The notes below the pieces were generated by a model. That model worked only from the letters and a program-made list of their open reading frames with translations. It searched no databases and was not told the DNA's origin. The translations under genes were made by a program, and so were the position numbers. From Actinomadura alba (lineage in GTDB: Bacteria > Actinomycetota > Actinomycetes > Streptosporangiales > Streptosporangiaceae), in NCBI RefSeq assembly GCF_014323705.1, contig NZ_JABVEC010000028.1, positions 1 to 64,000 on the forward strand: a stretch of DNA of 64,000 nt. The letters are read 5' to 3'. Numbering within the stretch: position 1 is the first letter of the stretch; each line of letters opens with the position of its first letter. Below are positions 5,198 to 61,513 of the stretch, one piece after another.

Positions 5198-6586
5198 CTA
5201 GACGCCGAATGCCGTCGGGTAGCGGATGGTGCCGGCGGGGACCGGACACGCGGGATCGAACGCGAGCGCCATCATGTACTCATCGGAGACGTCGAACGGT
5301 GGCCGGATGGCATAGCCCGAGGCCGGGGTGAAGCCGAAGCGGGGATAGTACTCGGCGTGGCCAAGGACGAGCACGAGGTTCTCGCCTTGTTCGCGGGCGG
5401 CTCGCAGGGCGGCGTGGATGGCGGCCGAGCCGGCGCCCTGCCTCTGGTAGTCGGGCCGGACGGCGCATGGGCCCAGGGCGAGGGCGGGGACATCGCCGAC
5501 ATGGCACCGGCTGAGTAGCGCGAATCCGGCGATGGTCCCGTCGGGGGCCTCGGCGACCCAGGACAGGCCGGGCAGCCATGCCGACGGGTCGGCGCGCAGA
5601 GCCTCGACCAGGTCGGCCTCTTCGGAGGTGGGAAAGGCGGCGAGGTTGACCTCGCGGATCGCTGTGAGGTCGGCGTCGGTCTCGGCGCGGGTGATCCAGG
5701 CGGTGGTCATGGCGGTGTGCGGGTCCGTTTCCGTACTGGTGGAGGAGTGGGTCTGCGGTCGCAGGATGTAGCCGGTGTATTGGTAGTCCGTGCCGTGCTC
5801 ACGGCGTATCGCGATCTCTTGCCGGGTGGCCGCGACGGCTTCGCGCATACCGGCCACGGCCGTGTCGGCCGAGTCGGCGCGTTCGGACAGCGGCGTGTAG
5901 TACTCGTCGAACCAGTCGCTGTCTGGGGGCGAGTGGATTGCGGCGACGGAGTACCCGGCGTCCCGCGCCGCAGTGACGTTGCGGTCCCCGGTGCGCAGCC
6001 GGTAGTGCTGGTCCCAGAATGCCCGCGCCTCGGCGGAGGGGGCGGCGGTGGTCCATTCGCACTCGGTGAGGACCAATGTGCCGGTGGGGGTCAGCAGCCG
6101 CTGCCAAGAGCGCAGCGCGGTGTCGAAGCCGATGTGGTAGGCGGATCCTTCGGCCCAGATCAGGTCGAAGCTTTCGTCGGCGAAGGGCAGGTCGGCCATC
6201 GACAGCCGGATGGTGCGGATGGCGTGGCCGAGGCCGCGGGCGGCGGCGGCCTGGGTCAGTTCGTCGAGGAACGGCTGGTGCAGGTCGATCGCAATGACCT
6301 CGGCGGCAGCCTCCTGAGCCAGCAGCAGTGCGGCTCGGCCGGGCCCGCAGCCGATGTCCAGTACGCGGGGACGCGCTGGCAGCGGGCCGGCCAGCGCCAG
6401 TAGGCGGCGAGTGGTCGCGTCTGAGCCGGGGCCTTGGCGGGGCAGGCCGTGGTGCAGGGCGAAGAACGCCTCGGTGATCGCGTTGTGCGGAATGTCGGTC
6501 ACGGTGGTGGCTGGTTCCTCGATGGAGTCGCGGGGGCGAGAGGCCGGTTCAATGTCGCCGGTGGTCGACGGGATGCGGTCGTTCAC
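5198..6586 (-). CDS. SAM-dependent methyltransferase fused to GNAT acetyltransferase
   Basis: This 462-aa protein has two domains. Residues about 35-275 form a class I methyltransferase, with motif I VLDIGCGPGRA (75-85), acidic residue IAIDLHQ (98-104) and the DLIWAEGSAYHIGF post-motif. Residues 292-462 begin at an internal Met and form a GNAT acetyltransferase. That half ends with the acetyl-CoA loop YQRQGAGSAAI and the EYYPRFGFTPA motif, as in predicted YhbS-type N-acetyltransferases. A Ser/Thr-rich linker joins them. The start overlaps the rsgA stop by four bases (ATGA), so the genes are co-translated. The substrates are unknown. Confidence 0.82.
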   Translation of the reverse strand: MNDRIPSTTGDIEPASRPRDSIEEPATTVTDIPHNAITEAFFALHHGLPRQGPGSDATTRRLLALAGPLPARPRVLDIGCGPGRAALLLAQEAAAEVIAIDLHQPFLDELTQAAAARGLGHAIRTIRLSMADLPFADESFDLIWAEGSAYHIGFDTALRSWQRLLTPTGTLVLTECEWTTAAPSAEARAFWDQHYRLRTGDRNVTAARDAGYSVAAIHSPPDSDWFDEYYTPLSERADSADTAVAGMREAVAATRQEIAIRREHGTDYQYTGYILRPQTHSSTSTETDPHTAMTTAWITRAETDADLTAIREVNLAAFPTSEEADLVEALRADPSAWLPGLSWVAEAPDGTIAGFALLSRCHVGDVPALALGPCAVRPDYQRQGAGSAAIHAALRAAREQGENLVLVLGHAEYYPRFGFTPASGYAIRPPFDVSDEYMMALAFDPACPVPAGTIRYPTAFGV

Positions 6587-7674
6587 GATTGCCGGTCCCG
6601 GAACTTGTAGGTCGCACGCAGATGACCGGTGATGGCTTTCTGCCGGTTGGTGCGCTCAGCGCGTAGTCGAGCATCGTTGCGCGAGGCCGCCCAGGTGTTC
6701 TCGCGTTGCAGTTTGCGGTGGCTGCGCAGGCGGCGCTCGGTCAGCTCGCCGGCCTGGATGGCGTCCTGAACCGCGCAACCGGGCTCGGTGTCGTGGCCAC
6801 AGTCGCCGAAGCGGCAGTCCTGGGCAAGACGTTCGATCTCGGAGAAGACCTGTTGCAGGCCGTCGGCGGCGTCGTAGAGGCCGATCCCGCGCAGGCCAGG
6901 GGTATCGATGAGCACACCACCGCCGGGAAGAAGGACCAGCTCGCGATGGACGGTGGTGTGGCGGCCCTTGCCGTCTTGTGCCCGTACTGCGCCGGTGGCG
7001 AGAACGTCTTCGCCGAGCAGGACGTTGCCCAAGGTGGACTTGCCCGCCCCGGAGGGCCCGAGCAGGACCGTGGTCCCGCTCAGCAGAGCGGTCAGGACAT
7101 CCATGTCCTGACCGGTGGCCGCGCTGGTGGTCACGATGTCCACGCCCGGGGCCAGCGCGCGGACATCGGCGTGGACGGCGTCGGCGTCGGCTGCCAGGTC
7201 CGCCTTGGTCAGGGCGACCACCGGCCGAGCGCCGCTGTCCCACGCCAGGGCCAGCAGCCGTTCCACCCGGCCGGCGTCCAGCGGGGCGGCCAGGGAGACG
7301 GCGACGACGACGGTGTCGATATTGGCGGCGAGCACCTGCCCATGGGAGGAGCGAGAGGCGGAGGCCCGCACGATCGCGCTTCGCCGCGGCAGCAGGGCCA
7401 CCAGTTCCGGATCCGACGACGGGCGCAGGGCAGCCCAGTCGCCGGTGCAGGGCGCGAGTAGTGGGTCGGTGGAATACAGCGCCGATAGGGCGGCCCGCGC
7501 CGGGCCGTGCTCGGTGACCGCATCGCACAGACCGCGATCCACACGCACGATCCGAGCCGGCGTCAAGCCGGCCCTACGGTGTTCAGCGAAGGCGCTGTCG
7601 AGCGCTTCGGTCCATCCGTACTGGGACAGGTCGACGTCGGTTGAGAAGGAGGAATCCGTGAAGGGAGATTGCAA
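6583..7674 (-). CDS. rsgA: Ribosome small subunit-dependent GTPase RsgA
   Basis: RsgA (YjeQ) is a circularly permuted GTPase that checks late maturation of the 30S subunit. The 363-aa protein shows an N-terminal OB-fold. G4 TKAD (156-159) precedes G1 GPSGAGKST (206-214) and G3 DTPG (257-260), which is the diagnostic permuted order. The C-terminal zinc site is C287, C292, H294 and C300. It heads a two-gene operon with the methyltransferase-acetyltransferase fusion. Many actinobacteria carry a second, diverged RsgA; this could be that accessory copy, given the neighbours. Confidence 0.93.
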   Translation of the reverse strand: MQSPFTDSSFSTDVDLSQYGWTEALDSAFAEHRRAGLTPARIVRVDRGLCDAVTEHGPARAALSALYSTDPLLAPCTGDWAALRPSSDPELVALLPRRSAIVRASASRSSHGQVLAANIDTVVVAVSLAAPLDAGRVERLLALAWDSGARPVVALTKADLAADADAVHADVRALAPGVDIVTTSAATGQDMDVLTALLSGTTVLLGPSGAGKSTLGNVLLGEDVLATGAVRAQDGKGRHTTVHRELVLLPGGGVLIDTPGLRGIGLYDAADGLQQVFSEIERLAQDCRFGDCGHDTEPGCAVQDAIQAGELTERRLRSHRKLQRENTWAASRNDARLRAERTNRQKAITGHLRATYKFRDRQS

Positions 7675-8058: not shown

Positions 8059-8979
8059 TCATGCCACGGTGATGGGGTCGCTCGTCCCTTCGCTGGGAAC
8101 TCCGGTGGCCGCGCCTGCGGCCCGTCGTAGGGCTGCGGTACGGAAGCGAGCGATCAAGCCGTGCCGGGGGGCGACACACCAGCAGATCAGGAAGAACGCG
8201 GTCACGACCAGCACGATCATGCCGCCGGCGGCGACGTTGAGGGAGAAGGACAGGTACAAGCCGGTGATGGACGCTCCTCCCCCGATGATCGGACCGAGGA
8301 TCATCATCACACCGAGCCGGTCGGTGAGCAGACGCGCACATGCGGCCGGGGTGATCAACAGCGCTAGGACCAGGATGTTGCCGACAGCCTGAATCGATAT
8401 GACGATGGCGATCGTCACCATCGCGTACAGCGCGATGTCGAGGGCAAACGTCGGCAGCCCGGCGGCCCGCGCCGTCTCGCGATCGAGGCCGACCGCGACC
8501 AGTTCCTTGTTCAGCACCAGGGTCACCAGCAGGAGCAGGGCTCCGGCAACGGCCACCGTCGCCACGTCCCCGTCGCTGATCCCGAGGATCTGGCCGAACA
8601 GGAACGATTCCAGTGATCCGCTGTAGCCGGGGGCGGTGCTCAGGATGACGATGCCGAGGCCGAAGGCGGCGGCGAAGAACACGCCTATGACGCTGTCCTC
8701 CTTCAGCCGGCGGTTCTGTGAGAAGACCGCGACCAGCAGCGCGGTGATCAGGCCGGCGACCGCACCTCCGAGGGTGAGGTTCCACTGGAACACGAAAGCG
8801 ACGGCGACGCCGGGAAATGCCGAGTGCGCCACCGCATCGCCGATGAACGCCATCCCCCGCAGCACCACGTGGCTGCCGATGACACCGCAGATGATTCCCG
8901 ACATCGCGGCGACCAGGAAGGCCCGCTGCATGAACACGTGCTCCCACGGTGCGGTGAGGAAGTCGCTGACCGCGCTCAT
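8059..8979 (-). CDS. Zinc/manganese ABC transporter permease (anchored-repeat type)
   Basis: This 306-aa ABC-3 (ZnuB/TroC) family permease has about eight or nine hydrophobic segments. The family signature is clear near the N-terminus: GIICGVIGSHVVLRGMAFIGDAVAHSAFPG, with the conserved GD-hSHxxxPG-like stretch. It would form the membrane channel of the zinc importer, with the ATPase upstream and the lipoprotein at 10688. The start overlaps the ATPase stop by four bases. Order and partners match the actinobacterial anchored-repeat transporter families. Confidence 0.92.
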   Translation of the reverse strand: MSAVSDFLTAPWEHVFMQRAFLVAAMSGIICGVIGSHVVLRGMAFIGDAVAHSAFPGVAVAFVFQWNLTLGGAVAGLITALLVAVFSQNRRLKEDSVIGVFFAAAFGLGIVILSTAPGYSGSLESFLFGQILGISDGDVATVAVAGALLLLVTLVLNKELVAVGLDRETARAAGLPTFALDIALYAMVTIAIVISIQAVGNILVLALLITPAACARLLTDRLGVMMILGPIIGGGASITGLYLSFSLNVAAGGMIVLVVTAFFLICWCVAPRHGLIARFRTAALRRAAGAATGVPSEGTSDPITVA

Positions 8980-9725
8980 GACGTCGCTCCGAGGGAGTCC
9001 AGGAACCGTTCGGACTGGGTGATGCCGAACGCTCGCAGCCAGACCGCCGGGTCGCGGAGCTCACTCGGCGGTCCGTCGGCGATCACGGTCTGGTTGAGCA
9101 GGCACAGCCGTCCGCACATCGCGGCCGCCGCCGCCAGGTCATGCGTCGTCATGAGCAGTGCCTTGTCCTTTCGCAGGTGCTGGAACAGCTCGGTGAGCAG
9201 CTCCTGTGTCGGGACATCGAGCCCGGTGAACGGCTCGTCGAGGAGCAGCAGCCTCGGCCGGAGGGCCAGTGCCCGCGCGACCAGGACGCGCTGGCGCTGT
9301 CCACCGGACAGCTCGCCGAGGGGACGCCGGCGCAACGCGGTCAGGTTGACGCGTTCCAGCGCTTCGTCCACGGCTTCGCGGTCCGCTCGTCCGGGGCGGC
9401 GCAACCGGCCGATGCGGTGGATCCGGCCGCTCATCACGGCCTTCTCCACCGAGATGGGGAAGTCCCAAGCGAACTCATGGCGCTGCGGGACGTAGCCGAC
9501 CGTGCCACGGGCGGCGGCCGGCGGCGCGCCCTCGATCCGTATCCGGCCGGAGGAGGCTGGGATGAGGCCCAGGACGGAGCGCAGCAGGGTGGTCTTGCCC
9601 GCGCCGTTCGGGCCGATCAGACCCACCAGCTCACCTCCGCCGACCCGCAGGCGCACGCCTGCCAGGGCCCGCCGCCCGCCCAACTCCACGGTGAGGTCAT
9701 CAACGGCAAGAACCGGCTCGGTCAT
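8976..9725 (-). CDS. Zinc/manganese ABC transporter ATP-binding protein (anchored-repeat type)
   Basis: This 249-aa ATPase powers the metal importer. Motifs are all intact: Walker [10 protein letters not shown] (about 38-46), Q-loop VPQRHEFAWDFPI, signature LSGGQRQRVLVARAL, Walker B LLLLDEPF, and switch His in MTTHDL. The VPQR-x-x-x-x-W-x-FP pattern is typical of ZnuC/TroB metal ATPases. The start codon follows the stop of the surface protein gene directly, and the stop overlaps the permease start. Confidence 0.93.
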   Translation of the reverse strand: MTEPVLAVDDLTVELGGRRALAGVRLRVGGGELVGLIGPNGAGKTTLLRSVLGLIPASSGRIRIEGAPPAAARGTVGYVPQRHEFAWDFPISVEKAVMSGRIHRIGRLRRPGRADREAVDEALERVNLTALRRRPLGELSGGQRQRVLVARALALRPRLLLLDEPFTGLDVPTQELLTELFQHLRKDKALLMTTHDLAAAAAMCGRLCLLNQTVIADGPPSELRDPAVWLRAFGITQSERFLDSLGATS

Positions 9726-10691
9726 TCACGCGTCCTTTCCCGGAGCGGCGGGTACGGCGTCGCCCGCCCGGCGCGCCGACCGCACAGCCGACATCGCCAC
9801 GACCGTGACGACCACGACGACCAACCCCGCTCCGCCGATGAGGGCCCACGCCCACATCGGCAAGGGAGTGCCGGTATCGCCGGAACCGTCCTCGTCCGAG
9901 GTACCGGCCACTGGAAAACCGGGTGGCGGCGCGGCGTCGAACGCCGCGGTGGCGTCGCCGCCGCCCACGAAGACGCGCAGGAGCCTGCGGTCGTTCACTT
10001 GCCGCCCGTCGAGCGTCCGCCCGCTCATGTCGATGTCGAGGAGGTAGGTTCCCTGCGCCGAGAACGCCCAGTTCCCATGAACGTGGGTGTTGACGTCGGT
10101 ACCCGTCTGCTGGGGGTACGGCCTGGCACTGTCGAACAGGATCTGCGGTGCGCCGAAGTCGCCATTGGCGAAGAGGACGAAGTGCCCGGGACCGGTCACA
10201 CCGCGCAGCGTCCAGGTCACCTCCCGATTGATCGTGGTCGCCACCTGGGGGTCCTGAGTGTTCCAGCCGGGCCACAGCACGCCCTGTTTCTGGACCTGTG
10301 GCAGCACCCACACCTGCGCGCCGGGACTACCGAGGAACGCGAACGTCCTGTCGCCCGGGACCTCCACCTTGGCGGCGTCGGCGACCTGCAGGACTACATC
10401 GTTCAGATTCCGCCACACCGGTGGACGGACGGTGTCGTCGCGTACCTGGATCGTCCACTTGCCGTCCAGGAAGCGCGGGCCCATGTCGACGTGGCCGTCG
10501 CCCACCACGGTACGTCCGGTGGCGGTCGACTCATCGGGCCGCACCGAGCCGCCGATCGTGGAATCCACGGAGGGGCTCGGCGTGGGCGCCCCCGACTCCC
10601 CCGACGCGCCCGTCGCGGGCAGGGCGGCCAGGATCGCGAGGGCCAGTGCCGCTGCCAGGCGCAACCGCCTCACCGCTGTGCTCGGCATCAT
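9726..10691 (-). CDS. Membrane-anchored protein with one anchored-repeat (choice-of-anchor M) domain
   Basis: The 321-aa product has a Sec signal peptide (about 1-30), one anchored-repeat domain and a C-terminal membrane helix (PMWAWALIGGAGLVVVVVTVV) with a basic tail. The domain carries GHVDMGP at its start, FAFLGSPGAQVWVLPQ, VLWPGWNT and THVHGNWAF near its end. The ATG at 10691 overlaps the binding-protein stop (ATGA) and has GGGAGG three bases upstream; ATG at 10688 is also possible. It lies inside the zinc ABC operon, so a role in binding or handing on metal outside the membrane is likely. Confidence 0.85.
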   Translation of the reverse strand: MMPSTAVRRLRLAAALALAILAALPATGASGESGAPTPSPSVDSTIGGSVRPDESTATGRTVVGDGHVDMGPRFLDGKWTIQVRDDTVRPPVWRNLNDVVLQVADAAKVEVPGDRTFAFLGSPGAQVWVLPQVQKQGVLWPGWNTQDPQVATTINREVTWTLRGVTGPGHFVLFANGDFGAPQILFDSARPYPQQTGTDVNTHVHGNWAFSAQGTYLLDIDMSGRTLDGRQVNDRRLLRVFVGGGDATAAFDAAPPPGFPVAGTSDEDGSGDTGTPLPMWAWALIGGAGLVVVVVTVVAMSAVRSARRAGDAVPAAPGKDA

Positions 10692-12262
10692 TTTCCTCCC
10701 AGGCACTTACGCAACTCGGTGGCGTTGTGCCGCATCATGGCGACGTAGTCGCGGGCGTCGTCGTCGAACGCGTCGCCGTAGAGCTTGCAGACTCTGACGT
10801 TCTGGTCCTTGGCCACCTGGCTGAGCACCTTCGCCCGCGCGGCGAGGTTCGGCTCCATGAACACCGCGGGTACTCGTAGATTGCGGATCGTCTGGGTGAG
10901 CTTGGCGACCTGCTCTGCGCTGGGCTCCTGGGCCGGGTTGGGCACCACGAACCCGGCGACCGTCATGGAGTAGGCCTTGGCCAGGTAGCCGAAGGCGTCG
11001 TGCGTGGTGATGAGCTGCCGACGGTCGGCTGGGATCTGAGCCGTCTGCTCTCGTACGAACGTGTCCAGCTTGTCGAGCTCGGCGAGATAGGCACGGGTGT
11101 TCTGGTCATAGCCAGATGCGCCGCCGGGGTCCTGCTTTTTCAGCGTGTCGCGGATCAACTGCACATATGCCTTGACGTTCTTGACGTCCTCCCACAGGTG
11201 GGGATCGATCTCACCGTGTACGTGCTTGCCGATCACCGCCTGCGGGAGCTGGTGGAGTCGGCTGCCGGGTTCGCCTAGAAACGAGAACGCCGCGTTGCCG
11301 GGAACCTTGTCCAGAGCGCGGTTCGGCACATCGATGATCACGTCTCCGGCCGGTACCTCCTTCTGGGGTCCCTTGGCGGCCTGGGTCCCCGTGACGGCGA
11401 TGTCGGTATAGGCGTAGAGGCGACCGCTGTCGAGATCCGCCGCGATGTCGGTGTGCCCGTCGTCGAGGATCGTGGCCTTGTCCGCCCCATCGACCGTGTG
11501 CGGATCGACGCCCACAGCGAAGGTGAAGGTGCCCTTCCCGATCGGCGCCGGCTCGGCGCTCCCGTTGCGCAGCGCGGCCTCCAGGGTCAGCCGGTAGACC
11601 CCGGGTTTGGAGAAGGCCCAATTCACATGAGTGTGCGCCGCCGGCGGAAGGGTGGCGACATCCTTGCCGTCCAGCCCGTCGGCGGAGTTGAAGTAGACGT
11701 TGGGCTGACCGAGTGTCTCGGTGAGATAGACGGCCAGCTCGCCGGGCCCCTCGAGCTTGGTCGCGGTGAGCTGGACGTCGGAGGTTCGCGTCGCCCCACG
11801 CTGTGCGCCCTCGCCGCGGACGGCGAGTCCCAGCCAGAGCACGTCCAGGCCGATGTTCTCCACCAGCGGGATGACTGTGGCGCCGTAGGTCTCCGCGGCC
11901 TCCGCCAGTGACACGTTGGGGGCGCCCTTGCGTACGTTGGAGTCAATGGTCTTGATCAGCGCGTGTTCTTCGAGCAGCAGATGATTGGTGAAGGTCGCGT
12001 CGGCCTTGGCGACCTTGGCCGCGTCGGTCGGCGTCGGATCGTACGAGTGCGGGTCGCCACCCGAGGGGACGAGCGAATCCACCTGAACGCGCTCTCGCCC
12101 CACGTTCTTCACCAGGTCGGCCAGGATCTCGGTCGTGGTGACCACCTTCAGCGCCGCGCTGGAGCCGTCCTGGCCACGGGCGCCGCTGCACCCGGCGAGA
12201 GCGACCATGGCGAGGGCCAGGATTCCCGCACCCGCTCTCGCGGTCCGGAGCGGAACATGCAT
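10688..12262 (-). CDS. Zinc ABC transporter substrate-binding lipoprotein with inserted anchored-repeat domain
   Basis: This 524-aa cluster A-I (ZnuA/TroA) binding protein has lipobox LAGC with C25. Expected metal ligands are H72 (DPHSYDP), H355 (DPHLWED), H421 (THDAF) and D497 (GDAF). Residues about 138-342 are an insertion related to the repeats in the neighbouring surface proteins, placed just before DPHLW, where ZnuA proteins carry their His-rich loop. Inside the insertion the order is VLWLGL (141), HTHVNWAF (210), GHTD (269), FSFLGEPGS (326) and LHQLPQ (336). This is circularly permuted relative to the stand-alone domains. HVHGEIDPH follows. The family is known as anchored-repeat ABC transporter binding proteins. 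Confidence 0.92.
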   Translation of the reverse strand: MHVPLRTARAGAGILALAMVALAGCSGARGQDGSSAALKVVTTTEILADLVKNVGRERVQVDSLVPSGGDPHSYDPTPTDAAKVAKADATFTNHLLLEEHALIKTIDSNVRKGAPNVSLAEAAETYGATVIPLVENIGLDVLWLGLAVRGEGAQRGATRTSDVQLTATKLEGPGELAVYLTETLGQPNVYFNSADGLDGKDVATLPPAAHTHVNWAFSKPGVYRLTLEAALRNGSAEPAPIGKGTFTFAVGVDPHTVDGADKATILDDGHTDIAADLDSGRLYAYTDIAVTGTQAAKGPQKEVPAGDVIIDVPNRALDKVPGNAAFSFLGEPGSRLHQLPQAVIGKHVHGEIDPHLWEDVKNVKAYVQLIRDTLKKQDPGGASGYDQNTRAYLAELDKLDTFVREQTAQIPADRRQLITTHDAFGYLAKAYSMTVAGFVVPNPAQEPSAEQVAKLTQTIRNLRVPAVFMEPNLAARAKVLSQVAKDQNVRVCKLYGDAFDDDARDYVAMMRHNATELRKCLGGK

Positions 12263-12337: not shown

Positions 12338-14395
12338 TCACGGTGCGGCGGATTCGGGCACCCGACGGCGACGGCGGTAGGTGGCCCCGACGGCCACTGC
12401 ACCGACGATGAGCAGTCCGGTGCCCACCGCGGCAGGTATGAGCACAGCGGCACCGGTGAACGGCAGCCGGCAGCCGGCGGCGTTGATCGTCAGGGTGGCG
12501 GACCGGCCCGGAAGCGCCGCGGTGTACGCCACCGGCGTCATGCGCAGTGACTGCGTCGTCGCACCCGAGGACCGTGGGTCGACGTCACCGACCGCGAAGG
12601 TGACCACCTCCGTGTCGGTGGACGTGGCGCCTGAGGCCAGCCTGGTGGACTGGGTGAAGGTCAGCTTGTAGATGCCCGGTGCGGTGAAGGCCCAGTTGCC
12701 GTGCGCGTGCGTGCCCGGCGCGACGCTGAAGGTGTCGGGAACGCCGTCCCCACTGTTGAAGATGATCTTCGGTTGGCCGAACGTGCTGTACTCGTAGATC
12801 GCGAACTTCCCGGGGCCGGTCACCTTGTCCAGTTTCCAGGTGACACCACCGTTGACCTGCGCGGTCGACAGCTCCTCGGTGTTCCACCCGGCCCACAGGA
12901 CACCCTGCTTCTGGGTCTGCGGGCTCTGCCAGATCGTCGAGCCCGCGCTGCCGAGGAAGCCGAACCCCGACGGCAGTTGAGTCGCCGACGACGGTTTGAG
13001 GTGAAAGACCACCGACGACGGCTCACGCCAGGTGGTCTTGCCGGCCACGGTGCCGTCCTTGACGAGCGATTTCAGCTTGCCGCCATCGATCCGGGCGGCG
13101 TAGTCGGCATGACCGTTGTCCAACACGACCGAGTCGGTCGCGGTGCCTCCGCCGCCGGACGAGCCACCCGACGAACTCGGTGAACTCGTGGCCGGGCCGC
13201 ACTTCGTCTCTGCGGAAGAATCGTCGCCCCCGCTGGACGGACCACCGCCTCCGCCACCCGAGGAGCCTCCGCCTGGAGACGAGGTCGTCGGCGTCGGCGC
13301 CGACGTTTGCGTCCGTGTGGGCGTGGGCGTCGGCGTCGGCGTGGGCGTCCGTGTGGGCGTGGGCGTCCGTGTGGGCGTGGGCGTCGTTCCCGGCCCGGAC
13401 ACCGTGTACGCAACAGCCGGCGACGTCGATGTCAGGTAGTCATTGGTGTACTCCGAGGTGTACTTCGCCGTCAGGGAGTGCGAACCCGCGGCCAGCGCGG
13501 ACGTCTTCAGCGACGCCCTGCCGTGCCTCGTCTCCTGCCTGCCCAGCGATGTGCTCCCATCGAAGAACTCGACCCACCCTGGCGCCCGGTGGGTGACCGT
13601 GGCCGACACGGTGACCTCGTCTCCGACCTGCGCCGTGTCCGGTGACGCCGTCAACGTGGTGCCCGTGCTCACCGGCACCACGTCGGCGGCCGTGGATCCG
13701 CCGACGTACCAGGTGAAGCTGACCGGTCCCGTGCTCAGTTCGTTGCCTGCCTTGTCGGTCCCCGTCACCTCGAACGTGAGCGTGTACGGACCGAGTTCGG
13801 TGAACGCCCAGTTCGCGTGCGCGTGGATCTGCACCTGTTGGCGAAATGTCTTGTAGCGCGAGTCAGTGGAACTGAAGTCCCGGATGGGCTCTCCCACCGG
13901 CCCGGTCCGGAAGATTTCGACCTTGCCCGGTCCGGAGGCGTCGACCAGGGAGATGTCCACCGAGTCGCCCTCGAACAGGCCCAGCCCCATGCTGGCGTCC
14001 TCAGTGGCGAAACCTGGCCACACCAGGTCGGTGATCTGGGTCTCCGGTGCGACCCAGACGGGAGCGCCCGGCTCTCCGAGGAAGGCGTAGTCCGGGAGGT
14101 CGGGTATCTGCAGCTTGGCGTCGGCGCTGTCCTTGAGCTGGAAGATCACCTCGCTGGGGTCGTGATACGTGTAAGCGCCCGCGCTGCCGACCCGTGTTCT
14201 CAAGTCCAGCCTGCCGCCCTCGTAGACCATGTACAGGGCATCGGTGTGAACGTCATTGACGACCAGCCTGGTCCGGGCCGCCGCGGGATCATCGGGAGCG
14301 GCGATCGCGGGAACGACCGACACCACTCCAACGATCATGAGTGCCACCAGCCCGATGCCCGTCAGCCAGCGGCGTCTGGGCCTGCCGCCTCGCAT
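12338..14395 (-). CDS. LPXTG-anchored surface protein with two anchored-repeat domains and an Ig-like domain
   Basis: This 685-aa protein has a signal peptide, then repeat domain 1 (NDVHTDALYM ... FLGEPGAPVWVAPE ... LVWPGFAT ... HAHANWAF). An Ig-like bacterial domain follows (SADT-type, LTASPDTAQVGDEVTVSATV), then a Pro-Thr linker and Gly/Ser-rich segment, then repeat domain 2 (NGHADYAARI ... HAHGNWAF). It ends in a sortase signal LPFTG (644-648), a hydrophobic helix and RRRRR. It is thus predicted to be linked to the peptidoglycan, with the linker spanning the wall. It heads the minus-strand zinc operon directly behind a Zur-like box. No sortase gene lies in the window. Confidence 0.9.
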   Translation of the reverse strand: MRGGRPRRRWLTGIGLVALMIVGVVSVVPAIAAPDDPAAARTRLVVNDVHTDALYMVYEGGRLDLRTRVGSAGAYTYHDPSEVIFQLKDSADAKLQIPDLPDYAFLGEPGAPVWVAPETQITDLVWPGFATEDASMGLGLFEGDSVDISLVDASGPGKVEIFRTGPVGEPIRDFSSTDSRYKTFRQQVQIHAHANWAFTELGPYTLTFEVTGTDKAGNELSTGPVSFTWYVGGSTAADVVPVSTGTTLTASPDTAQVGDEVTVSATVTHRAPGWVEFFDGSTSLGRQETRHGRASLKTSALAAGSHSLTAKYTSEYTNDYLTSTSPAVAYTVSGPGTTPTPTRTPTPTRTPTPTPTPTPTRTQTSAPTPTTSSPGGGSSGGGGGGPSSGGDDSSAETKCGPATSSPSSSGGSSGGGGTATDSVVLDNGHADYAARIDGGKLKSLVKDGTVAGKTTWREPSSVVFHLKPSSATQLPSGFGFLGSAGSTIWQSPQTQKQGVLWAGWNTEELSTAQVNGGVTWKLDKVTGPGKFAIYEYSTFGQPKIIFNSGDGVPDTFSVAPGTHAHGNWAFTAPGIYKLTFTQSTRLASGATSTDTEVVTFAVGDVDPRSSGATTQSLRMTPVAYTAALPGRSATLTINAAGCRLPFTGAAVLIPAAVGTGLLIVGAVAVGATYRRRRRVPESAAP
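13313..13387. repeat. Low-complexity repeat encoding a Pro-Thr-Arg linker
   Basis: Short units of GTGGGC, GTCGGC and GTCCGT alternate in tandem. On the minus strand they encode PT and RT dipeptides in the wall-spanning linker of the surface protein. Such repeats vary in length by slippage. Confidence 0.8.
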
Positions 14396-14512: not shown

Positions 14513-14527
14513 TGAATATCATTTTCG
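14513..14527 (-). promoter_or_regulatory. Zur-like box upstream of the surface protein/zinc ABC operon
   Basis: TGAATATCATTTTCG resembles the actinobacterial Zur operator TGAAAATGATTTTCA; read on the other strand it is CGAAAATGATATTCA, with two mismatches. It lies about 118 bases before the minus-strand gene starting at 14395. A-T-rich sequence of this kind is otherwise absent nearby. Confidence 0.62.
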
Positions 14528-14574: not shown

Positions 14575-14594
14575 TGAAAAAGATTATCGTTTCA
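14575..14594 (+). promoter_or_regulatory. Zur-like box upstream of the secreted repeat-protein pair
   Basis: TGAAAAAGATTATCG (14575-14589) matches the Zur consensus at 12 of 15 positions, and the wider TGAAA-N10-TTTCA is itself an inverted repeat. It lies 38 bases before the GTG at 14633, a position that would block transcription initiation when zinc-loaded Zur binds. Confidence 0.65.
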
Positions 14595-14632
14595 GTATCG
14601 TGAGGCTCCCCATCCCCGACTCAGGAGTCCCT

Positions 14633-15280
14633 GTGCAGCTACGCCCTGTAGTCATGCTCGCCTCCACCGCACTGGCGACGGCACTCGTCGCCATGGCGCC
14701 CGCACACGCGTCGACCCGCGTCGTCCTCGACAAGGGGCATGTCGACGTCATGGAAGTCGAATACGTGGCCGGCGAGTTCGAAGTCCACGTCCACGACGAG
14801 ACCGCCGAACCCGCGGTGGAAAGAAGCCCGGACGAGGTTCTGTTCCGGGCGCTGCCCGAGTCCCTGACGACCGTGCCCGCGGACCCCGCGTTCGCCTTCC
14901 TCGGCAAGCCCGGCGATCCCCTGTGGCTCCTACCGCAGGCCGGGAACCCTGACCTGTTGTGGCCAGGAATCAGCACCGAGGACCTGTCCTCGGGCACCTT
15001 CGCCGCCGACTCGGTGACCCTCAAGCTGCGCACCGTCCGGGGCCCCGGCAAGTTCAGCATCTTCACCGAGGGCGCCGCCGGTCAGCCGCAGGTCCTGTTC
15101 AACTCCCGCGATGGGCTCCCCGACACCTCGGCCCTCCCCGTCAGCGGTCACCAGCACGCCAACTGGGCCTTCACCGCACCGGGCACCTACCAGCTCACCT
15201 TCCAGGTCAGCGCCACACTCGCCGGCAGCGGCCAAGCGGTCACCTCCGGCTCGGTGACATACCTGTTCAAGGTGGGCTGA
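14633..15280 (+). CDS. Secreted single-domain anchored-repeat protein
   Basis: The protein is 215 aa: a signal peptide (cleavage probably after AHA, residue 26-27) followed by one repeat domain. The domain shows KGHVDVMEVEY, FAFLGKPGDPLWLLPQ, LLWPGIST, GPGKFSIF and HQHANWAF. There is no membrane helix or sortase signal at the C-terminus, so it should be released or held by partners. GTG at 14633 is chosen because AGGAG lies 6 bases upstream and the product then begins with a normal signal peptide. A GTG at 14600 would overlap the operator region. It is followed after 4 bases by a paralogue. Confidence 0.85.
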   Translation: MQLRPVVMLASTALATALVAMAPAHASTRVVLDKGHVDVMEVEYVAGEFEVHVHDETAEPAVERSPDEVLFRALPESLTTVPADPAFAFLGKPGDPLWLLPQAGNPDLLWPGISTEDLSSGTFAADSVTLKLRTVRGPGKFSIFTEGAAGQPQVLFNSRDGLPDTSALPVSGHQHANWAFTAPGTYQLTFQVSATLAGSGQAVTSGSVTYLFKVG

Positions 15281-15284
15281 CCTG

Positions 15285-15956
15285 ATGACTCATCGAAACA
15301 AGAAGGCCGTGCGTATCCGGACCCGTCTGGCCGTCACCCTCGCATCCATGCTCACGGCATCGCTCGTGACCGCCACACCGGCGCTGGCCGAACCTGTCAC
15401 CCTCACAAGCGGCCATGTCGACATCCTCGATGTGAACTATGTCTCAGACAACCTCAATGTGAAGGTCCGCGACGAGACGTCGGGAGCCGCGGTCGAAAGG
15501 AACCCGGCCGACGTCACGTTCCAGGTTCCGGCGGCGGCGAAGACCACAGTGCCCAGCGGCTCCGCATGGAGCTTCCTGGGCACCGCCGGCTCCACCGTCT
15601 GGGTGCTGCCGCAGTCTCAGGTCTCGAACCTGATCTGGCCGGGCTGGAACACTGCGGACGTGGCCGGCGGTGTCTTCGACGGCAATCGGCTGACGTTCGA
15701 ACTCGTCAGCGTCACGGGCGGCCAGTTCAGCATCTACCGGACAAGCCTCGGTAGTCCCACCGTGCTGTTCCACAGCCGCGACAGCGGGCCGAAGACCCAG
15801 TATGTCTCCGCTGGTTCACACGCCCACGCGAACTGGGCGTTCAACACCGCCGGCACCTACACCGTGACCTTCAAGGTGACCGGCACCCTGGCCGGCACAA
15901 CGACGACGAAGACCTCGGGCAACGTGTCCTTCACCTTCCAGGTCCTCAACTCCTGA
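15285..15956 (+). CDS. Secreted single-domain anchored-repeat protein, paralogue
   Basis: This 223-aa paralogue of the preceding protein has a Sec signal (RTRLAVTLASMLTASLVTAT, cleavage after ALA) and one repeat domain. Motifs are SGHVDILDVNY, WSFLGTAGSTVWVLPQ, LIWPGWNT, GGQFSIY and HAHANWAF. It ends right after the final beta-strand VSFTFQVLNS, again without any anchor. The two genes are transcribed divergently from the zinc ABC operon behind their own Zur-like box. They probably serve as extracellular metal-binding proteins, in the manner of secreted zincophores, but that is inference. Confidence 0.85.
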   Translation: MTHRNKKAVRIRTRLAVTLASMLTASLVTATPALAEPVTLTSGHVDILDVNYVSDNLNVKVRDETSGAAVERNPADVTFQVPAAAKTTVPSGSAWSFLGTAGSTVWVLPQSQVSNLIWPGWNTADVAGGVFDGNRLTFELVSVTGGQFSIYRTSLGSPTVLFHSRDSGPKTQYVSAGSHAHANWAFNTAGTYTVTFKVTGTLAGTTTTKTSGNVSFTFQVLNS

Positions 15957-55801: not shown

Positions 55802-56054
55802 GAAGGCCTTTCGTTGATTTGAATACCGCGATACGCGGCTGATGCCAGGTTTGCTCACTGCATTGCGACGGCGTACACGGTGAGCTTCTGGACGACTCGG
55901 CGCCCCGCCCATTCCGACGGCCGGTGGCCTCGCGCCGGCAGCCCGCGATGTGCCGCGATGTGCCGCGGCGGCGGCGAACCAGCGTCTTGTACTCGCCGAT
56001 CCGCACGCCGCCGCCGAAGTCGTACGGCTCTGTGTCGCGCAGGGGGGAGAGGGC

Positions 56055-56630
56055 ATGAAGTGCGGAAGTCAGATAGCGGTCGGCGTCATCGGCGGATACC
56101 TGCTGGGGCGCAGTCACAAGACCAGGTTGGCCGTGCTCATGGCGCTCATGGCGGCGGGGGGAAAACTCCCCGTGGATCCCGCTGATCTGCTGCGCCGCAC
56201 ACCCTTGGGCGCTGAGGGCGGCCCCTTGGACAAGCTGACCGGCGACCTGCGCAGCCAGTTGCTCGACGCGGGCAAGTCGGTCGCGATGGCCGCCGCGAGC
56301 GGCCGCATCGATTCGCTCAGTGACAAGCTTCAGCAGCGCGCGGAGACGCTGCGCGAACCTGCCGCCGGGAAGCGCAGAGCGCGCCCGGCCGAGGAGCCGC
56401 GGGAAGAGCGCGGGCGCAGAGCGGACGAGGACGAGGACGCGTACGACTACGAGGACGAGTACGAGGACTACTACGAGGACGAGGAAGAGTACGGGCCCGA
56501 GGAGCCCGAAGAGCGTGAGGAGCGCCGGCCGCCGGCTCGCCTACCACGCCGTGAGCCTCGCCGGGCAACGCGCAGGAGTGGCCAGGACGCCTCCAGAGCC
56601 CCCAGGAGGACGCCGCGCGCCACGCGATGA
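56055..56630 (+). CDS. Gas-vesicle-operon accessory protein with acidic tail
   Basis: The 191-aa protein has a conserved N-terminal part (CGSQIAVGVIGGYLLGRSHKTRLAVLMALMAAGGKLPVDP) with a hydrophobic helix and GYLLGR motif. A helical region (LDKLTGDLRSQLLDAGKSVAMAAASGRIDSL) follows. The last 90 residues are disordered: an Asp/Glu/Tyr-rich run (YEDEYEDYYEDEEEYG) and then an Arg/Pro-rich end. ATG 56055 follows GGGGGAGAGGG. Related proteins occur in Streptomyces gvp clusters among the unassigned accessory genes (a GvpY-type assignment is a guess). It may link vesicles to membrane or cytoplasmic partners. Confidence 0.72.
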   Translation: MKCGSQIAVGVIGGYLLGRSHKTRLAVLMALMAAGGKLPVDPADLLRRTPLGAEGGPLDKLTGDLRSQLLDAGKSVAMAAASGRIDSLSDKLQQRAETLREPAAGKRRARPAEEPREERGRRADEDEDAYDYEDEYEDYYEDEEEYGPEEPEEREERRPPARLPRREPRRATRRSGQDASRAPRRTPRATR

Positions 56631-56651
56631 CCGATAGCGAGGGCGATAGCG

Positions 56652-57953
56652 ATGACTGATCAGCAATCCGGTGGGACGGGCACGGATGTGGCGGAAGGCC
56701 TGCACACGGGCCGGCTGTCGCACGAGGCACAGAACTTCATGGGCGCCCTCGCGGACAGGGCGGTGGACACGGTCAGCGCGAAGCTCAGCGAGGCCACCGA
56801 CAAGCTGATCGACAAAATGGACCAGGGGGGTCCGGGCGTCAAGTCGGCGGTGAGCGGCCTGAAGGCGCTCGCGGAGGGCAAGTCCCCCTTCCGCGCCGCG
56901 GTCAGCGCCGGGGCCACCGGCCTGAAGGAGAAGGTGAAGCAGATCTTCCGGGGCGGCAAGGGCAAGAAGGGGCTCAAACTCACCAACATCGCCGAGACCT
57001 TGGACGTCGGCGTCCCGATGCGCCTCGCCTACGACCAGTGGACGCAGTTCGAGGACTTCCCGAGCTTCACGAAGAAGGTCGAGCACGCGGAGCACCCGGA
57101 GGACGAGAAGGTCAACTGGAAGGCGCAGATCTGGTGGTCGCACCGTAGCTGGGAATCGACGATCATCGAGCAGGTACCCGACGACCACATCGTCTGGCGG
57201 TCGAAGGGGCCTAAGGGCTACGCCGACGGCGCGGTGACCTTCTCCGAACTCGCTCCGAACCTGACCCGGATCATGCTGGTCATGGAGTACCACCCGCAGG
57301 GGCTCTTCGAGCACACGGGCAACCTCTGGCGGGCCCAGGGACGACGAGCCCGGCTCGAGTTCAAGCACTTCCGCCGGCACGTCATGGCCCACGCCATCCT
57401 CAACCCCGACGAGATCGAGGGCTGGCGCGGTGAGATCCGTGACGGCGAGGTGGTGAAGACCCACGAGGAGGCCCTCGAAGAGGAGAAGCGCGCCCGCGGC
57501 GAGGCGGCCGAGGGCGGCGAGCGGGTGGGCGCTCCGGAGGCGGAAGAGGGCCCCGAGGAAGAGGGCCCCGAGGAGCGGGCCCGCGCCGAGCGCCGCGAAG
57601 AGGAGGAGTACGAGGAGCACGAAGGCGAGGAGTACCGCGCCGAGCGTGAGGAGGAGGAGCCCGAGGAAGAGGGCGAAGAGGAGTACCGCGCCGACGTCTC
57701 GGCGGAAGAGGCCGCCGAAGAGGAGGAGCCGCGCCGCGCACGGCCGCCGGCTCGCCGTCGCGCACCCGTACGACGCCGCGCCGCGGCCGAGCCCGAGGAG
57801 GAAGAGCCGGAGCCGGCCCCGCCGAGGGTGCGGAGCGGACCTGCGAGGCGGCGGCCGGCGGACGGACGCGCGGCCGAGGAGCCACGCAGAGCACCCGCCC
57901 GGCGACGGGCGCCGGCCCGCCGGCGCGCCGAGGGACCGGACGAAGAGGAATAG
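56652..57953 (+). CDS. SRPBCC-domain gas-vesicle accessory protein with long charged tail
   Basis: This 433-aa protein has an N-terminal helical part ([35 protein letters not shown]). Residues about 110-250 form an SRPBCC/polyketide-cyclase-like fold with the typical [23 protein letters not shown] and [31 protein letters not shown]. The remaining 170 residues alternate Glu-rich and Arg/Ala/Pro-rich disordered blocks. A SRPBCC gene sits in the same place in Streptomyces gvp clusters (often called GvpZ, a label I cannot confirm). It lies 21 bases after the preceding gene. Confidence 0.78.
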
Positions 57954-58017
57954 GGACGCCCGGGCGCGACCGCGGCGATGGAGCCGAGCGGATGCCCGCG
58001 GCGGGGGAGGCAATCCG

Positions 58018-58431
58018 ATGACCGTTTCTTCGACCCGAGGATCGCCGGTCGACCGCCCGTCCGGTGGCGGACTCGCGGACGTCGTGGGCTTGATCCTGGA
58101 CAAGGGCCTGGTGATCGACGCGTTCGTGCGCGTCTCGCTGGTCGGCATCGAGCTGATCACCATCGACGCGCGCATCGTCGTGGCGAGTGTGGACACCTAT
58201 CTGCGCTTCGCCGAGGCCACCAACCGGCTCGATCTCTACGAGAAGGGCGGGAAGAGCCTGCCCGAAGTCGTCCAGGGGATCACCGAGGCCGGGACCCAGA
58301 GCGTGGCCAAGGGGAAGACGAAGGGGGTCCTCGACGCGGCCAAGGAGACGTTCGAGGAGACCATGGCGGACCGCCGGGAACAGGCCCGCGAGCGGCGCAC
58401 CCGGCCGGCCCGGGGGGAGCGTGAGCCGTGA
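58018..58431 (+). CDS. gvpA: Gas vesicle structural protein GvpA
   Basis: This 137-aa protein has the GvpA core [49 protein letters not shown]. That core forms the ribs of the gas vesicle wall. It is preceded by a 17-residue polar leader. About 65 residues follow the core, longer than classical GvpA (70-80 aa) but usual in actinobacteria. ATG 58018 has GGGGGAGG 7 bases upstream, the best ribosome site of the operon, which suits the major structural protein. Confidence 0.93.
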
Positions 58432-59222
58432 CGACGCGGTCGCGGTCCCAGAGCGCGGAGGGTCTCATGAACGAACCGGGCACTGCCTGTTACGTCTACG
58501 GGGTGGTCCCGGCCGACGCCGTTGTGCCCGAGGGCCTGACCGGTACCGACGGGAACGAGGTCTCCCTGGTACGGCACGGCGAGCTCGCCGGGGTGGTGAG
58601 CGAGATCATGCCCGAGGGACCGCTGGGCACCAGAGAGGACCTGCTCGCACACGAGCACGTGGTGGAGACGCTCGCCAAGGAGACCACGATGCTGCCGCTG
58701 AGATTCGGCGCGGTGGTCACCAGCGCCGACGCGGTGGTCGACGAGATGCTCGCACCGCACCACGACTGGTTCGCCGACGCCATCGCCGACCTGGCAGGTC
58801 GCATGGAGTACACGATCCTCGGCACCTATGTGGAGGAGACCGTACTGCGCGAGGTGCTGGAGGAGCGGCCGGAGGCCAGGAGGCTGCGCGAGAACCTGCG
58901 CGACCTGCCCGAGGACGCCGGCTACTACGAGCGCGTCCGGTTGGGCGAACTCGTCGTACAGGCGCTCGAGGAGAAGCGTGAGGTCGACACCGAGGAGCTG
59001 GCGCAGGCGCTCGCGCCGTACGCCGTGGCGGTGGCGCCACGGGAGGCGGCCGGCGAGGACACGGCCGCGGACGTGGCGTTCCTCGTCGACGACAAGGATC
59101 AGCGGCGGTTCGAGCGCGCCGTGGACGAGCTCGGCCACGAGTGGTCCGGCCGGATCCGGCTGCGCATGATCGGGCCTCTGGCGCCCTACGACTTCGTCCC
59201 CTCGCCGCCGGAGGTGGATTGA
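58428..59222 (+). CDS. gvpF: Gas vesicle protein GvpF
   Basis: This 264-aa GvpF/GvpL family protein has [20 protein letters not shown] and [24 protein letters not shown] in the first domain, and [20 protein letters not shown] at the C-terminus. It is needed for vesicle assembly and contacts GvpA. GTG 58428 overlaps the gvpA stop (GTGA), but ATG 58467 has GGAGGG upstream and is an equally good start. Its partner GvpL lies four genes downstream. Confidence 0.92.
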
Positions 59223-59225
59223 CCG

Positions 59226-59471
59226 ATGGGGCTGTTGACGGGGTTGCTGACGCTGCCGATCGCGCCCGTACGTGGAGTCGTTTGGCTGGCGGAGCGTATC
59301 CGCGATCAGGCGGAGCAGGAGATGTACGATCCCGCGGCGGTGCGCGCCCAGCTGGCCGAGGTCGACCGCGCGCGTGCCTCCGGCGAGCTCCCCGAAGACG
59401 TCGCGGCGGAACTCGAGGACGAGCTGCTGAGCCGGCTGACGGCCGGGCGCTCCCGCGCGCCGGAGACGTGA
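59226..59471 (+). CDS. gvpG: Gas vesicle protein GvpG
   Basis: This 81-aa GvpG reads MGLLTGLLTLPIAPVRGVVWLAERIRDQAEQEMYDP, followed by a helical, acidic stretch (LAEVDRARASGELPEDVAAELEDELLSRL). This is the family hallmark. It assists assembly with GvpF and GvpL. It starts 3 bases after gvpF. Confidence 0.92.
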   Translation: MGLLTGLLTLPIAPVRGVVWLAERIRDQAEQEMYDPAAVRAQLAEVDRARASGELPEDVAAELEDELLSRLTAGRSRAPET

Positions 59472-59472
59472 C

Positions 59473-59922
59473 ATGCGGGCGGGCCGGCCGGGTGAGCGAG
59501 ACGACCCCCGGGAGGGGCCTGTCCGCGACCGCGAAAGGCGGCCGCTTCGGGACCGTGAAAGGCGGGTCCGCGAGGAGCCGGAGCTCGATCGCGAAAGGCC
59601 GGTCCGGGACCGTGAGGAGCCGGTCCGCGACCGCGAGGGGCGGCCGCCGCGCCGGGGCCGCCGGGTCACCGCGCCGCTTGCGGCCAAGCTGGCGGCCCGC
59701 TACGTCGAGGAGATGACCGGCAAGGAGCCCGAAGGGATCACCTCGCTCGAACGCGATGACGACGGGCTGTGGCACATCGGCGTCGAGGTGCTCGAGCTCC
59801 ATCGGGTCCCCGACACGACGGACATTCTTGCGCTGTACGAGGCCGAACTCGACGAGGACGGCGAGCTCATCGCCTACCGGCGCACCCACCGCTACTCACG
59901 CGCACAGGTACTGGAGGAGTGA
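59473..59922 (+). CDS. gvpO: Gas vesicle protein GvpO with Arg/Glu-rich repetitive N-terminus
   Basis: The C-terminal 85 residues form the GvpO domain (APLAAKLAARYVEEMTGKEPEGITSLERDDDGLWHIGVEVLELHRVPDTTDILALYEAELDEDGEL). The N-terminal 60 residues consist of charged repeats such as RDRERRPLRDRERRVRE and DRERPVRDREEPVRDRE, with Pro between. GvpO is needed for vesicle formation, possibly as a regulator of gvp expression. The repeat tract is unusual and should be disordered. It begins one base after gvpG. Confidence 0.9.
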   Translation: MRAGRPGERDDPREGPVRDRERRPLRDRERRVREEPELDRERPVRDREEPVRDREGRPPRRGRRVTAPLAAKLAARYVEEMTGKEPEGITSLERDDDGLWHIGVEVLELHRVPDTTDILALYEAELDEDGELIAYRRTHRYSRAQVLEE

Positions 59923-59923
59923 C

Positions 59924-60334
59924 GTGACGGACCCGATGCGGGTCGGCCGGACCAGCGGTTACGGACGCCCGCCCGTCCCTCGGCGGCCCGAGTCCGCCAA
60001 CCTCGCCGACATCCTCGAGCGGGTGCTGGACAAGGGCATCGTCATCGCCGGGGATATCCAGGTGAACCTGCTGGACATCGAACTATTGACGATCAAGCTC
60101 CGGCTGATCGTGGCCTCGGTCGAGCGGGCCAAGGAGATGGGCATCGACTGGTGGGAGCACGACCCCACGCTCTCCTCCCGCGGCGGCGGCGAGATCGCCA
60201 GGGAGAATCGCGAGCTGCGTGACCGGATCGCCGCGCTGGAGGCCGCCGCCGACCGCGAGGTGCCACCGGCCGCCCGGCGGGAGGGGCTGGACACGCGTTC
60301 GCGCGCACCGGCCGAGGAGGAGCCGGGTGACTGA
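59924..60334 (+). CDS. gvpJ: Gas vesicle protein GvpJ (GvpA family)
   Basis: This 136-aa GvpA-like protein has LADILERVLDKGIVIAGDIQVNLLDIELLTIKLRLIVASVERAKEMGIDWWEHDP. The WW-containing tail after the core distinguishes GvpJ/M-type nucleation proteins from GvpA. A further charged 50 residues follow. GTG 59924 has GGAGGAG close upstream; ATG 59936 is an alternative. It overlaps gvpL by 8 bases. Confidence 0.9.
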   Translation: MTDPMRVGRTSGYGRPPVPRRPESANLADILERVLDKGIVIAGDIQVNLLDIELLTIKLRLIVASVERAKEMGIDWWEHDPTLSSRGGGEIARENRELRDRIAALEAAADREVPPAARREGLDTRSRAPAEEEPGD

Positions 60335-61235
60335 GACGGGCACCTATGTCTACGCCATCAGCCGTGGCCGTCCCGACCGGATGTCCGAGGCGATGGAGGG
60401 GGTCGGCGGCGTCGCCGGTGCTCAGGTGCGCGCGGTCGCGCACGCCGGGCTGACCGCACTGGTGAGCACCGTCGGCCTGGCCGAGTTCGGTGAGGACGCC
60501 CTCAAGCGCAATCTGGAGAATCTCGACTGGCTCGAGTCGACGGCCCGCGCGCACCACGCGGTCGTCGACGGCACGGCCGCCGTCGCCGTGACCCTGCCCC
60601 TGCGGCTCGTCACCGTCTACCGCAACGATGAGCGGGTACGTGAGGTGCTCAGCGAGCGTGGCGAGGAGTTCACCGAGGCGCTGGACCGCATCACCGGGCG
60701 CACGGAGTGGGGCGTCAAGGGCTACGCGGACCCGGCGGCGTTCACGTCGGCCGGCGCCGGGCCAGGCGACGCGGGACGCGGCGACACAGCGCGAGGCGAC
60801 ACGGGACGCGGCGACACGAGGCACGGCGACACGGGGGCGAGCAGCCCCGGTACCGCCTACCTCCAGCGCCGGCGGGCGCAGCAGCGCACCGACAAGGACG
60901 CGCGTGAGGAGGCCGCCGCCTGCGCGGACCGGATCGACTACGAGCTCTGCGAGATCGCGGCCACGAGCCGGGTCCATCCACCGCAGGACCCACAGCTGTC
61001 CGGGCACGAGGGCTGGATGATCCTGAACGCCGCCTACCTCGTCGACGACGAACGGGCGGAGGACTTCCGCGCGGCCGTCACCCGCCTGTCCGGCCTGCGT
61101 GCCGGGCTCCGGCTGGAGCTGACCGGCCCGTGGGCGCCGTACTCCTTCGCCGAGGAGCCCACCGGCGAAGCCGCCGAAACCGAAGCCGCCGAGGAGGGCA
61201 CCGAGGAAGAGGAGGGGCCATGGACCGGGTCCTGA
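60327..61235 (+). CDS. gvpL: Gas vesicle protein GvpL with repeat insertion
   Basis: This 302-aa GvpF/L-family protein has TYVYAISRGRPDR at the start, AVAVTLPLRLVTVYRNDERV in the first domain, and LRLELTGPWAPYSF at the end. An insertion of five 5-residue units of the form GDTxR (about residues 147-171), encoded by a 15-bp tandem repeat, breaks the central region. The C-terminus is Glu-rich. It overlaps gvpS by 16 bases. The gene is a diverged partner of gvpF. Confidence 0.9.
   Translation: MTETGTYVYAISRGRPDRMSEAMEGVGGVAGAQVRAVAHAGLTALVSTVGLAEFGEDALKRNLENLDWLESTARAHHAVVDGTAAVAVTLPLRLVTVYRNDERVREVLSERGEEFTEALDRITGRTEWGVKGYADPAAFTSAGAGPGDAGRGDTARGDTGRGDTRHGDTGASSPGTAYLQRRRAQQRTDKDAREEAAACADRIDYELCEIAATSRVHPPQDPQLSGHEGWMILNAAYLVDDERAEDFRAAVTRLSGLRAGLRLELTGPWAPYSFAEEPTGEAAETEAAEEGTEEEEGPWTGS
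60765..60839 (+). repeat. 15-bp tandem repeat inside gvpL
   Basis: Five units of the kind GGCGACACGGGACGC lie end to end at 60765-60839, each giving Gly-Asp-Thr/Ala-x-Arg/His/Ala. The unit size keeps the frame, so copy number can change without loss of the gene. Confidence 0.85.
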
Positions 61236-61513
61236 CCGGGGTTCCGGTGCCGCCGCCCGGGCGATCGGCCGTGTCCCGGGGCGAGAACATCGCGCTGGTC
61301 GACCTGCTGGACCGGTTGCTGGCCGGCGGTGTCGTCATCACCGGCGACATCACGATCTCGATCGCGGACGTCGATCTCGTGAAGATCTCGCTTCGCGCGA
61401 TCATCGCGTCGATCCGCCCGGAGATGGACCGCATCCGGGGCGAGGAGGCGACCGTGACCCGGCTCGACGAGCACCGGCGATCCGTACCGTCTCGAAGAGA
61501 GCGGCCATCGTGA
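61220..61513 (+). CDS. gvpS: Gas vesicle protein GvpS (GvpA family)
   Basis: This 97-aa protein has the GvpA-like core IALVDLLDRLLAGGVVITGDITISIADVDLVKISLRAIIASIRPEMDRI. The short length and position before gvpK match GvpS of actinobacterial clusters. ATG 61220 follows GGAGGGGCC and lies within the gvpL end. It is probably a minor vesicle or nucleation protein. Confidence 0.88.
   Translation: MDRVLTGVPVPPPGRSAVSRGENIALVDLLDRLLAGGVVITGDITISIADVDLVKISLRAIIASIRPEMDRIRGEEATVTRLDEHRRSVPSRRERPS

Follow-up and report, generated by a model that had tools for sequence, protein, structure and literature searches.

A choice-of-anchor-M domain in circularly permuted order within the TroA/ZnuA-type lipoprotein of an Actinomadura alba gene cluster

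The window analysed here, a stretch of 64,000 nucleotides from Actinomadura alba (contig NZ_JABVEC010000028.1, positions 1 to 64,000), contains at 10688..12262 on the minus strand a gene for a substrate-binding lipoprotein of 524 amino acids with lipobox Cys25. A profile search matched its open reading frame to TIGR03772 with 649.9 bits over profile positions 1-486, which is the whole model (curated cut-off 350.45 bits). Pfam ZnuA (PF01297) was also matched with 236.8 bits (gathering cut-off 29 bits), in two stretches that are split by an insert of about 202 residues (140-341). What is this insert, and how does it relate to the repeat domains of the neighbouring surface proteins? The first-pass annotation, made from the letters of the sequence, had proposed that a whole surface-repeat domain was looped into the binding protein at a new break point and in rotated order.

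Its sequence places the gene product in family TIGR03772, among the lipoproteins of TroA/ZnuA type. Both lobes of this fold are present and align to PsaA. The N-terminal lobe (11846..12151, minus strand; residues 38-139, PsaA-alignment residues 14-99) carries the predicted zinc ligand H72, and the C-terminal lobe (10691..11212, minus strand; residues 351-524) the predicted ligands H355, H421 and D497. These residues are assigned to a four-residue metal site; the predicted set of three His and one Asp matches the zinc members of PF01297, and all four positions are invariant in 71 of 71 inserted binding proteins. Cys492 and Cys520 of the C-terminal lobe are likewise invariant in all 71 and possibly form a disulfide. 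The equivalents of the metal site in ZnuA of C. diphtheriae are H63, H317 and H383 (PMC12445094).

The insert is followed by an invariant GKHVHG linker (11213..11230, minus strand; residues 345-350), which lies between insert and metal site, and then by DPHLW (353-357). Every landmark of the repeat was found where the first-pass annotation had put it within residues 141-341, namely VLWLGL (141-146), HTHVNWAF (210-217), GHTD (269-272), FSFLGEPGS (326-334) and LHQLPQ (336-341). The first part of the insert (11510..11845, minus strand; residues 140-251, LWxG ... HxHxNWAF) corresponds to the C-terminal half of the choice-of-anchor-M domain, the second part (11240..11473, minus strand; residues 264-341, GHxD ... 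FLGxPG ... LPQ) to the N-terminal half. A new linker (11474..11509, minus strand; residues 252-263, best rotation point 256-262) bridges the original C and N termini. According to alignment and conservation, HTH (H210, H212; 11627..11635, minus strand) is the HxH of the stand-alone domain and HTD (H270, D272; 11447..11455, minus strand) its HxD.

The NCBI choice-of-anchor-M profile NF038134 (184 positions, cut-off 55 bits) matched the insert twice and in reversed order, with profile positions 69-184 at 11875..11513 (70.4 bits) followed by positions 2-75 at 11467..11231 (25.3 bits). Jointly the two halves cover the whole profile, which bears out the idea of a complete domain opened at a new break point. 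Profile search of the lipoprotein gave no single whole-profile NF038134 match in the unrotated insert, and each of five neighbouring domain copies gave one in-order match. As the insert matches NF038134 in two reversed stretches, it was therefore identified as a permuted member of the choice-of-anchor-M domain. A profile of our own, built from 117 stand-alone domains, matched the insert with 80.1 bits (81-188) and 44.1 bits (2-77). A chance match was ruled out, because the best of 200 shuffled inserts reached 2.9 bits. A scan with this profile covered every rotation of the insert at three-residue intervals. The score rose from 80.1 to 126.9 bits, as one match over positions 2-187, and peaked with a cut at residues 256-262. 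Rotation raised the score in 80 of 80 inserts (medians 73.7 and 132.5 bits), 78 of which then gave a single whole-profile match, and lowered it in all 160 stand-alone domains used as a control. An order-keeping profile-profile alignment (hhalign) recovered only the second half of the domain (99.8%, E 9e-28), which rules out a sequence-ordered fit. We regard it as virtually certain that the insert is a circularly permuted choice-of-anchor-M domain with its second half placed before its first.

The same rotation was seen in predicted structures. The stand-alone domain of the secreted protein encoded from position 14600 was predicted by AF2 with a pLDDT of 97.8 and a pTM of 0.92, and the insert alone, modelled by AlphaFold from an alignment of inserts only, reached 90.0 and 0.88. 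The comparison of the two models rests on their alignment and their secondary-structure elements. In the insert model a first group of elements (E10-16, E29-38, E43-48, E54-59, E69-72, E77-79, E81-84, E88-99, E106-117) precedes a second group (E131-133, E137-143, E148-153, E168-171, E175-179, E184-186, H191-196, E202-206). The stand-alone model begins with this second group (E4-6 to H59-64 and E70-74) and continues with the first (E83-88 to E182-188), whose last strand in the insert spans two short strands there. The rotated alignment paired 187 of 189 residues with 34% identity and 88% secondary-structure agreement, and the unrotated alignment only 114; H10, D12, H147 and H149 of the stand-alone domain fall on H270, D272, H210 and H212 of the insert. 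The two confident models thus predict a shared fold with its elements in rotated order, and the alignment that keeps sequence order fits clearly worse. A sequence search found no solved structure related to the choice-of-anchor-M domain. At the level of fold, a sequential search showed only faint similarity (Z below 7) to copper nitrite reductase and to Ig-like domains of peptidylarginine deiminases; domains of the PAD family align to residues 5-189 of the stand-alone model compared to residues 4-119 of the insert, with low Z in both cases, which is no more than compatible with a permutation.

A genome scan yielded 372 relatives, and a first set of 83 binding proteins was compiled from the 80 top-ranking loci, the window and two further genomes. 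The set comprises mostly Actinomycetes and one Acidimicrobiia MAG, and its binding proteins have the permuted order in 83 of 83 cases. The patterns used for fetching these loci were based on motifs, and because one of them (PQAV-GKH) spans a junction, a second set was picked by the family profile only. Of 297 genomes sampled from the class, 22 contain a member. Nineteen of these members were new, and all 19 show the permuted order, so that a bias of the fetching patterns as its source was ruled out. The break point is kept as well and lies at profile position ~73-81 in all 83 + 19 permuted binding proteins, and at ~73-77 within the first set. All 385 full stand-alone copies in the first set follow the usual order. 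No permuted copy outside binding proteins was found among the open reading frames of the first set, and no unpermuted insert was seen as a second architecture among the relatives checked.

In an unrooted tree of 162 domains the inserts make up one side of a branch (SH-aLRT 99), and they do so again in unrooted trees of the two half-domains (support 97 and 100). The cores of the inserted binding proteins split from those of plain ones, also in an unrooted tree (support 99). Because the trees are unrooted, one origin is the simplest reading and no proof. A single ancient insertion in the ancestor of the TIGR03772 family is probable. The whole-domain and half-domain trees resolved no donor lineage, and no pre-insertion intermediate, i.e. 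a plain binding protein beside a choice-of-anchor-M gene, turned up when the short flanking stretches at 27 loci were checked.

The agreement between the two halves bears on the reading that no permutation took place and that either two unrelated half-domains were gained or short His motifs converged. Peng et al. (PMC12445094) report only short reversed motifs with shorter spacing and no rearranged domain, which would be in line with such an origin. Nevertheless, the insert matches the whole domain beyond its motifs, it is predicted on its own as one compact fold, and the same single clade is obtained from both halves, which makes this reading highly improbable.

Which function the permuted domain may have is suggested by its position and its conserved residues. 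In many plain substrate-binding proteins the loop at the insertion site is rich in His and Glu and stands before the same DPHxW or NPHxW, in agreement with the earlier placement of the insert at the site of the His-rich loop of ZnuA, just before DPHLW; in PsaA this loop is short. H210, H212, H270 and D272 are invariant in 71 of 71 inserts, and their equivalents in the stand-alone domain, H147/H149 of HxH and H10/D12 of HxD, in 117 of 117 domains. The motifs are separated by 52-60 residues from HxH to HxD in the insert and by 131-138 residues from HxD to HxH in the stand-alone domain. All 71 binding proteins also share H347 and H349 of the GKHVHG linker. An insert that sits at the His-rich-loop position of plain ZnuA-type proteins, just before ligand H355, and has its own conserved set of His and Asp could act as a lid or zinc sensor that takes over the regulatory role of this loop, holds excess zinc and controls access to the cleft without any partner. 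Such a function leaves unexplained the constant presence of stand-alone copies nearby and the natural fusions of binding protein and ZnuE-like domain described below, and it appears unlikely to us.

Downstream of the lipoprotein gene lie three genes on the minus strand. They encode a ZnuE-like membrane-anchored protein with one unpermuted domain (9726..10706; NF038134 184.3 bits over 2-176, TIGR03773 193.0 bits), the membrane anchor being read from the sequence as a hydrophobic C terminus, an ABC ATPase (8976..9725; TIGR03771 337.4 bits, cut-off 268.8) and an ABC permease (8059..8979; TIGR03770 372.9 bits, cut-off 296.8). Upstream, a wall protein (12338..14395, minus strand) carries two unpermuted copies (13703-14263 and 12590-13126) and a C-terminal LPFTG; between the copies lie a Big_3_5 Ig-like domain and a long Thr/Pro-Ser/Gly linker. 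A divergent pair of plus-strand genes encodes two secreted single-domain proteins with the unpermuted order, at 14600..15280 (NF038134 188.6 bits over 1-184; the copy modelled by AF2) and at 15285..15956 (168.3 bits). Two Fur/Zur-like boxes, each with 2 mismatches to TGANAATGATTNTCA, are located between the divergent genes, in their promoter region, at 14513..14527 and 14575..14589. Across 81 related loci 103 such boxes were counted, compared to 1.0 expected from local shuffles; they could belong to another regulator of the Fur family. Altogether we are confident that the lipoprotein cluster is a zinc system. Support for zinc regulation and for effects of zinc on the stand-alone proteins comes from publications on the counterpart in C. 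diphtheriae. There, zinc acting through Zur represses the cluster (PMC6711530), a znuE deletion leads to poorer growth in low zinc, conserved His residues matter for growth, ZnuE and ZnuF respond to zinc in thermal shift assays, and the znuA mutant has a weak phenotype (PMC12445094).

Some other genes of the window were noted by eye. Near the zinc cluster, 6583-7674 (minus strand) reads as an RsgA-like GTPase; Zrg, a GTP-binding protein, belongs to the zinc/Zur regulon of C. diphtheriae (PMC6711530). The frame at 5198-6586 (minus strand) looks like a fusion of a methyltransferase with a GNAT acetyltransferase and may be one odd gene or two. Gas-vesicle-like genes occupy 56000-61300, with GvpF/L-like open reading frames at 58428 and 60219 that have very Glu-rich tails, and these tails may account for the strong AT skew of 0.228 at 56-60 kb.

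At least one stand-alone copy of the domain is present in 83 of 83 loci of the first set. Furthermore, in Catelliglobosispora (L055:6369-8687) and in Allorhizocola (L064:6531-8897) one fused open reading frame combines a binding protein with permuted insert, an unpermuted ZnuE-like domain and a membrane anchor. A single chain in two genera suggests that binding protein and ZnuE-like domain work together, and in combination with the stand-alone copies in all 83 loci this points to joint action of both domain forms. The fusions and the ever-present copies would also be expected if the permutation were real and the insert served as a docking or dimerisation module for the wall and membrane copies, with neither zinc binding nor transfer, and the finding that His-to-Ala mutants of ZnuE are still zinc-responsive (PMC12445094) fits this as well. 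For docking alone, however, the invariance of four candidate ligands in 71 of 71 inserts and 117 of 117 stand-alone domains exceeds what is needed, and the domain occupies the His-rich-loop site of plain relatives. We therefore consider pure docking somewhat unlikely.

The reading we prefer, with a probability of roughly 0.7, is that of a permuted domain in the binding protein of a zinc ABC transporter, in which the insert provides a second zinc site and relays zinc to the cleft. To the computed domain identity, rotated order, shared predicted fold, conservation and single clade it adds the following course of events. The lipoprotein would be the substrate-binding component of an actinobacterial zinc ABC transporter, and a complete choice-of-anchor-M domain would have been placed in circularly permuted form at the position of its His-rich loop. 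The old termini of the domain would have been joined by a linker of ~12 residues and the chain opened anew in the short loop that connects LPQ to LWPG, so that the new ends there are fused to the host; this presumably happened once, in the ancestor of the family. The insert would bind zinc as a second site beside the cleft, take zinc from or dock with the stand-alone copies on wall and membrane, and hand it on to the transport site (H72, H355, H421, D497) by way of the invariant GKHVHG linker. Zinc binding by the insert is suggested by its conserved residues. That it receives zinc or has a part in a hand-off stands at slightly under an even chance in our judgement. Still more tentative is the broader idea that a domain was permuted and inserted in place of the His-rich loop and that its occurrence on wall, membrane and lipoprotein forms a zinc hand-off chain to the transport site. 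If true, this chain would cross the thick cell wall, and its last step would be a transfer within the lipoprotein onto the transport site. Since the insert is now recognised as fully homologous to the zinc proteins of wall and membrane, the idea that zinc is relayed across the cell wall of actinobacteria can be tested directly. In addition, the lipoprotein is a clear example from nature of a permuted domain inserted into a binding protein of periplasmic type, an arrangement that is used in engineering to make sensors.

The first-pass annotation knew of no description of the permutation, and this holds in part. The insertion is already implied by the name of TIGR03772 ("anchored repeat ABC transporter, substrate-binding protein"), of which the lipoprotein is a member and which already states the anchored repeat; the name makes clear that the NCBI curators were aware of the repeat in this protein, and their note on the family reportedly calls it an insert. 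The order of the repeat is absent from the model's name and its matches, and rotation and break point are added here to what these give. In the openly searchable literature we found no account of circular permutation in the TIGR03772 family, nor any of permutation combined with insertion into the binding protein. The reversal of the short motifs, in turn, was published in 2025. Peng et al. (PMC12445094) describe HxD/HxH in ZnuA of C. diphtheriae as standing "in reverse order" and with shorter spacing; the words insert and permutation are absent from the text of that paper, and models are shown of ZnuE, ZnuF and ZnuG and none of the insert of ZnuA. Zinc binding in vitro by HxD/HxH is unproven there because the His-to-Ala mutants still responded. 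The circular permutation of the insert explains the reversed motif noted earlier, which can now be seen as a definite event in evolution, with a constant break point and apparently a single origin.

ZnuA of C. diphtheriae (TroA, DIP0438; znuAECB) is the counterpart of the lipoprotein by gene content and in that DIP0438 is annotated under the same family name. Common to both clusters are the binding protein, the ZnuE-like protein, ATPase, permease and wall proteins, as well as the reversed HxD/HxH in the binding protein. Plain members of PF01297 (TroA/ZnuA/PsaA type) have the same two lobes and, in the zinc members, the same three His and one Asp, but a short or His-rich loop where the TIGR03772 lipoproteins carry a domain of ~202 residues. 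The surface proteins matched by NF038134 and TIGR03769/TIGR03773 possess the same domain as the insert with the same invariant HxD and HxH, yet their stand-alone copies run HxD-FLG-LPQ-LWPG-HxH, whereas the insert of the lipoprotein runs LWLG-HxH-HxD-FLG-LPQ.
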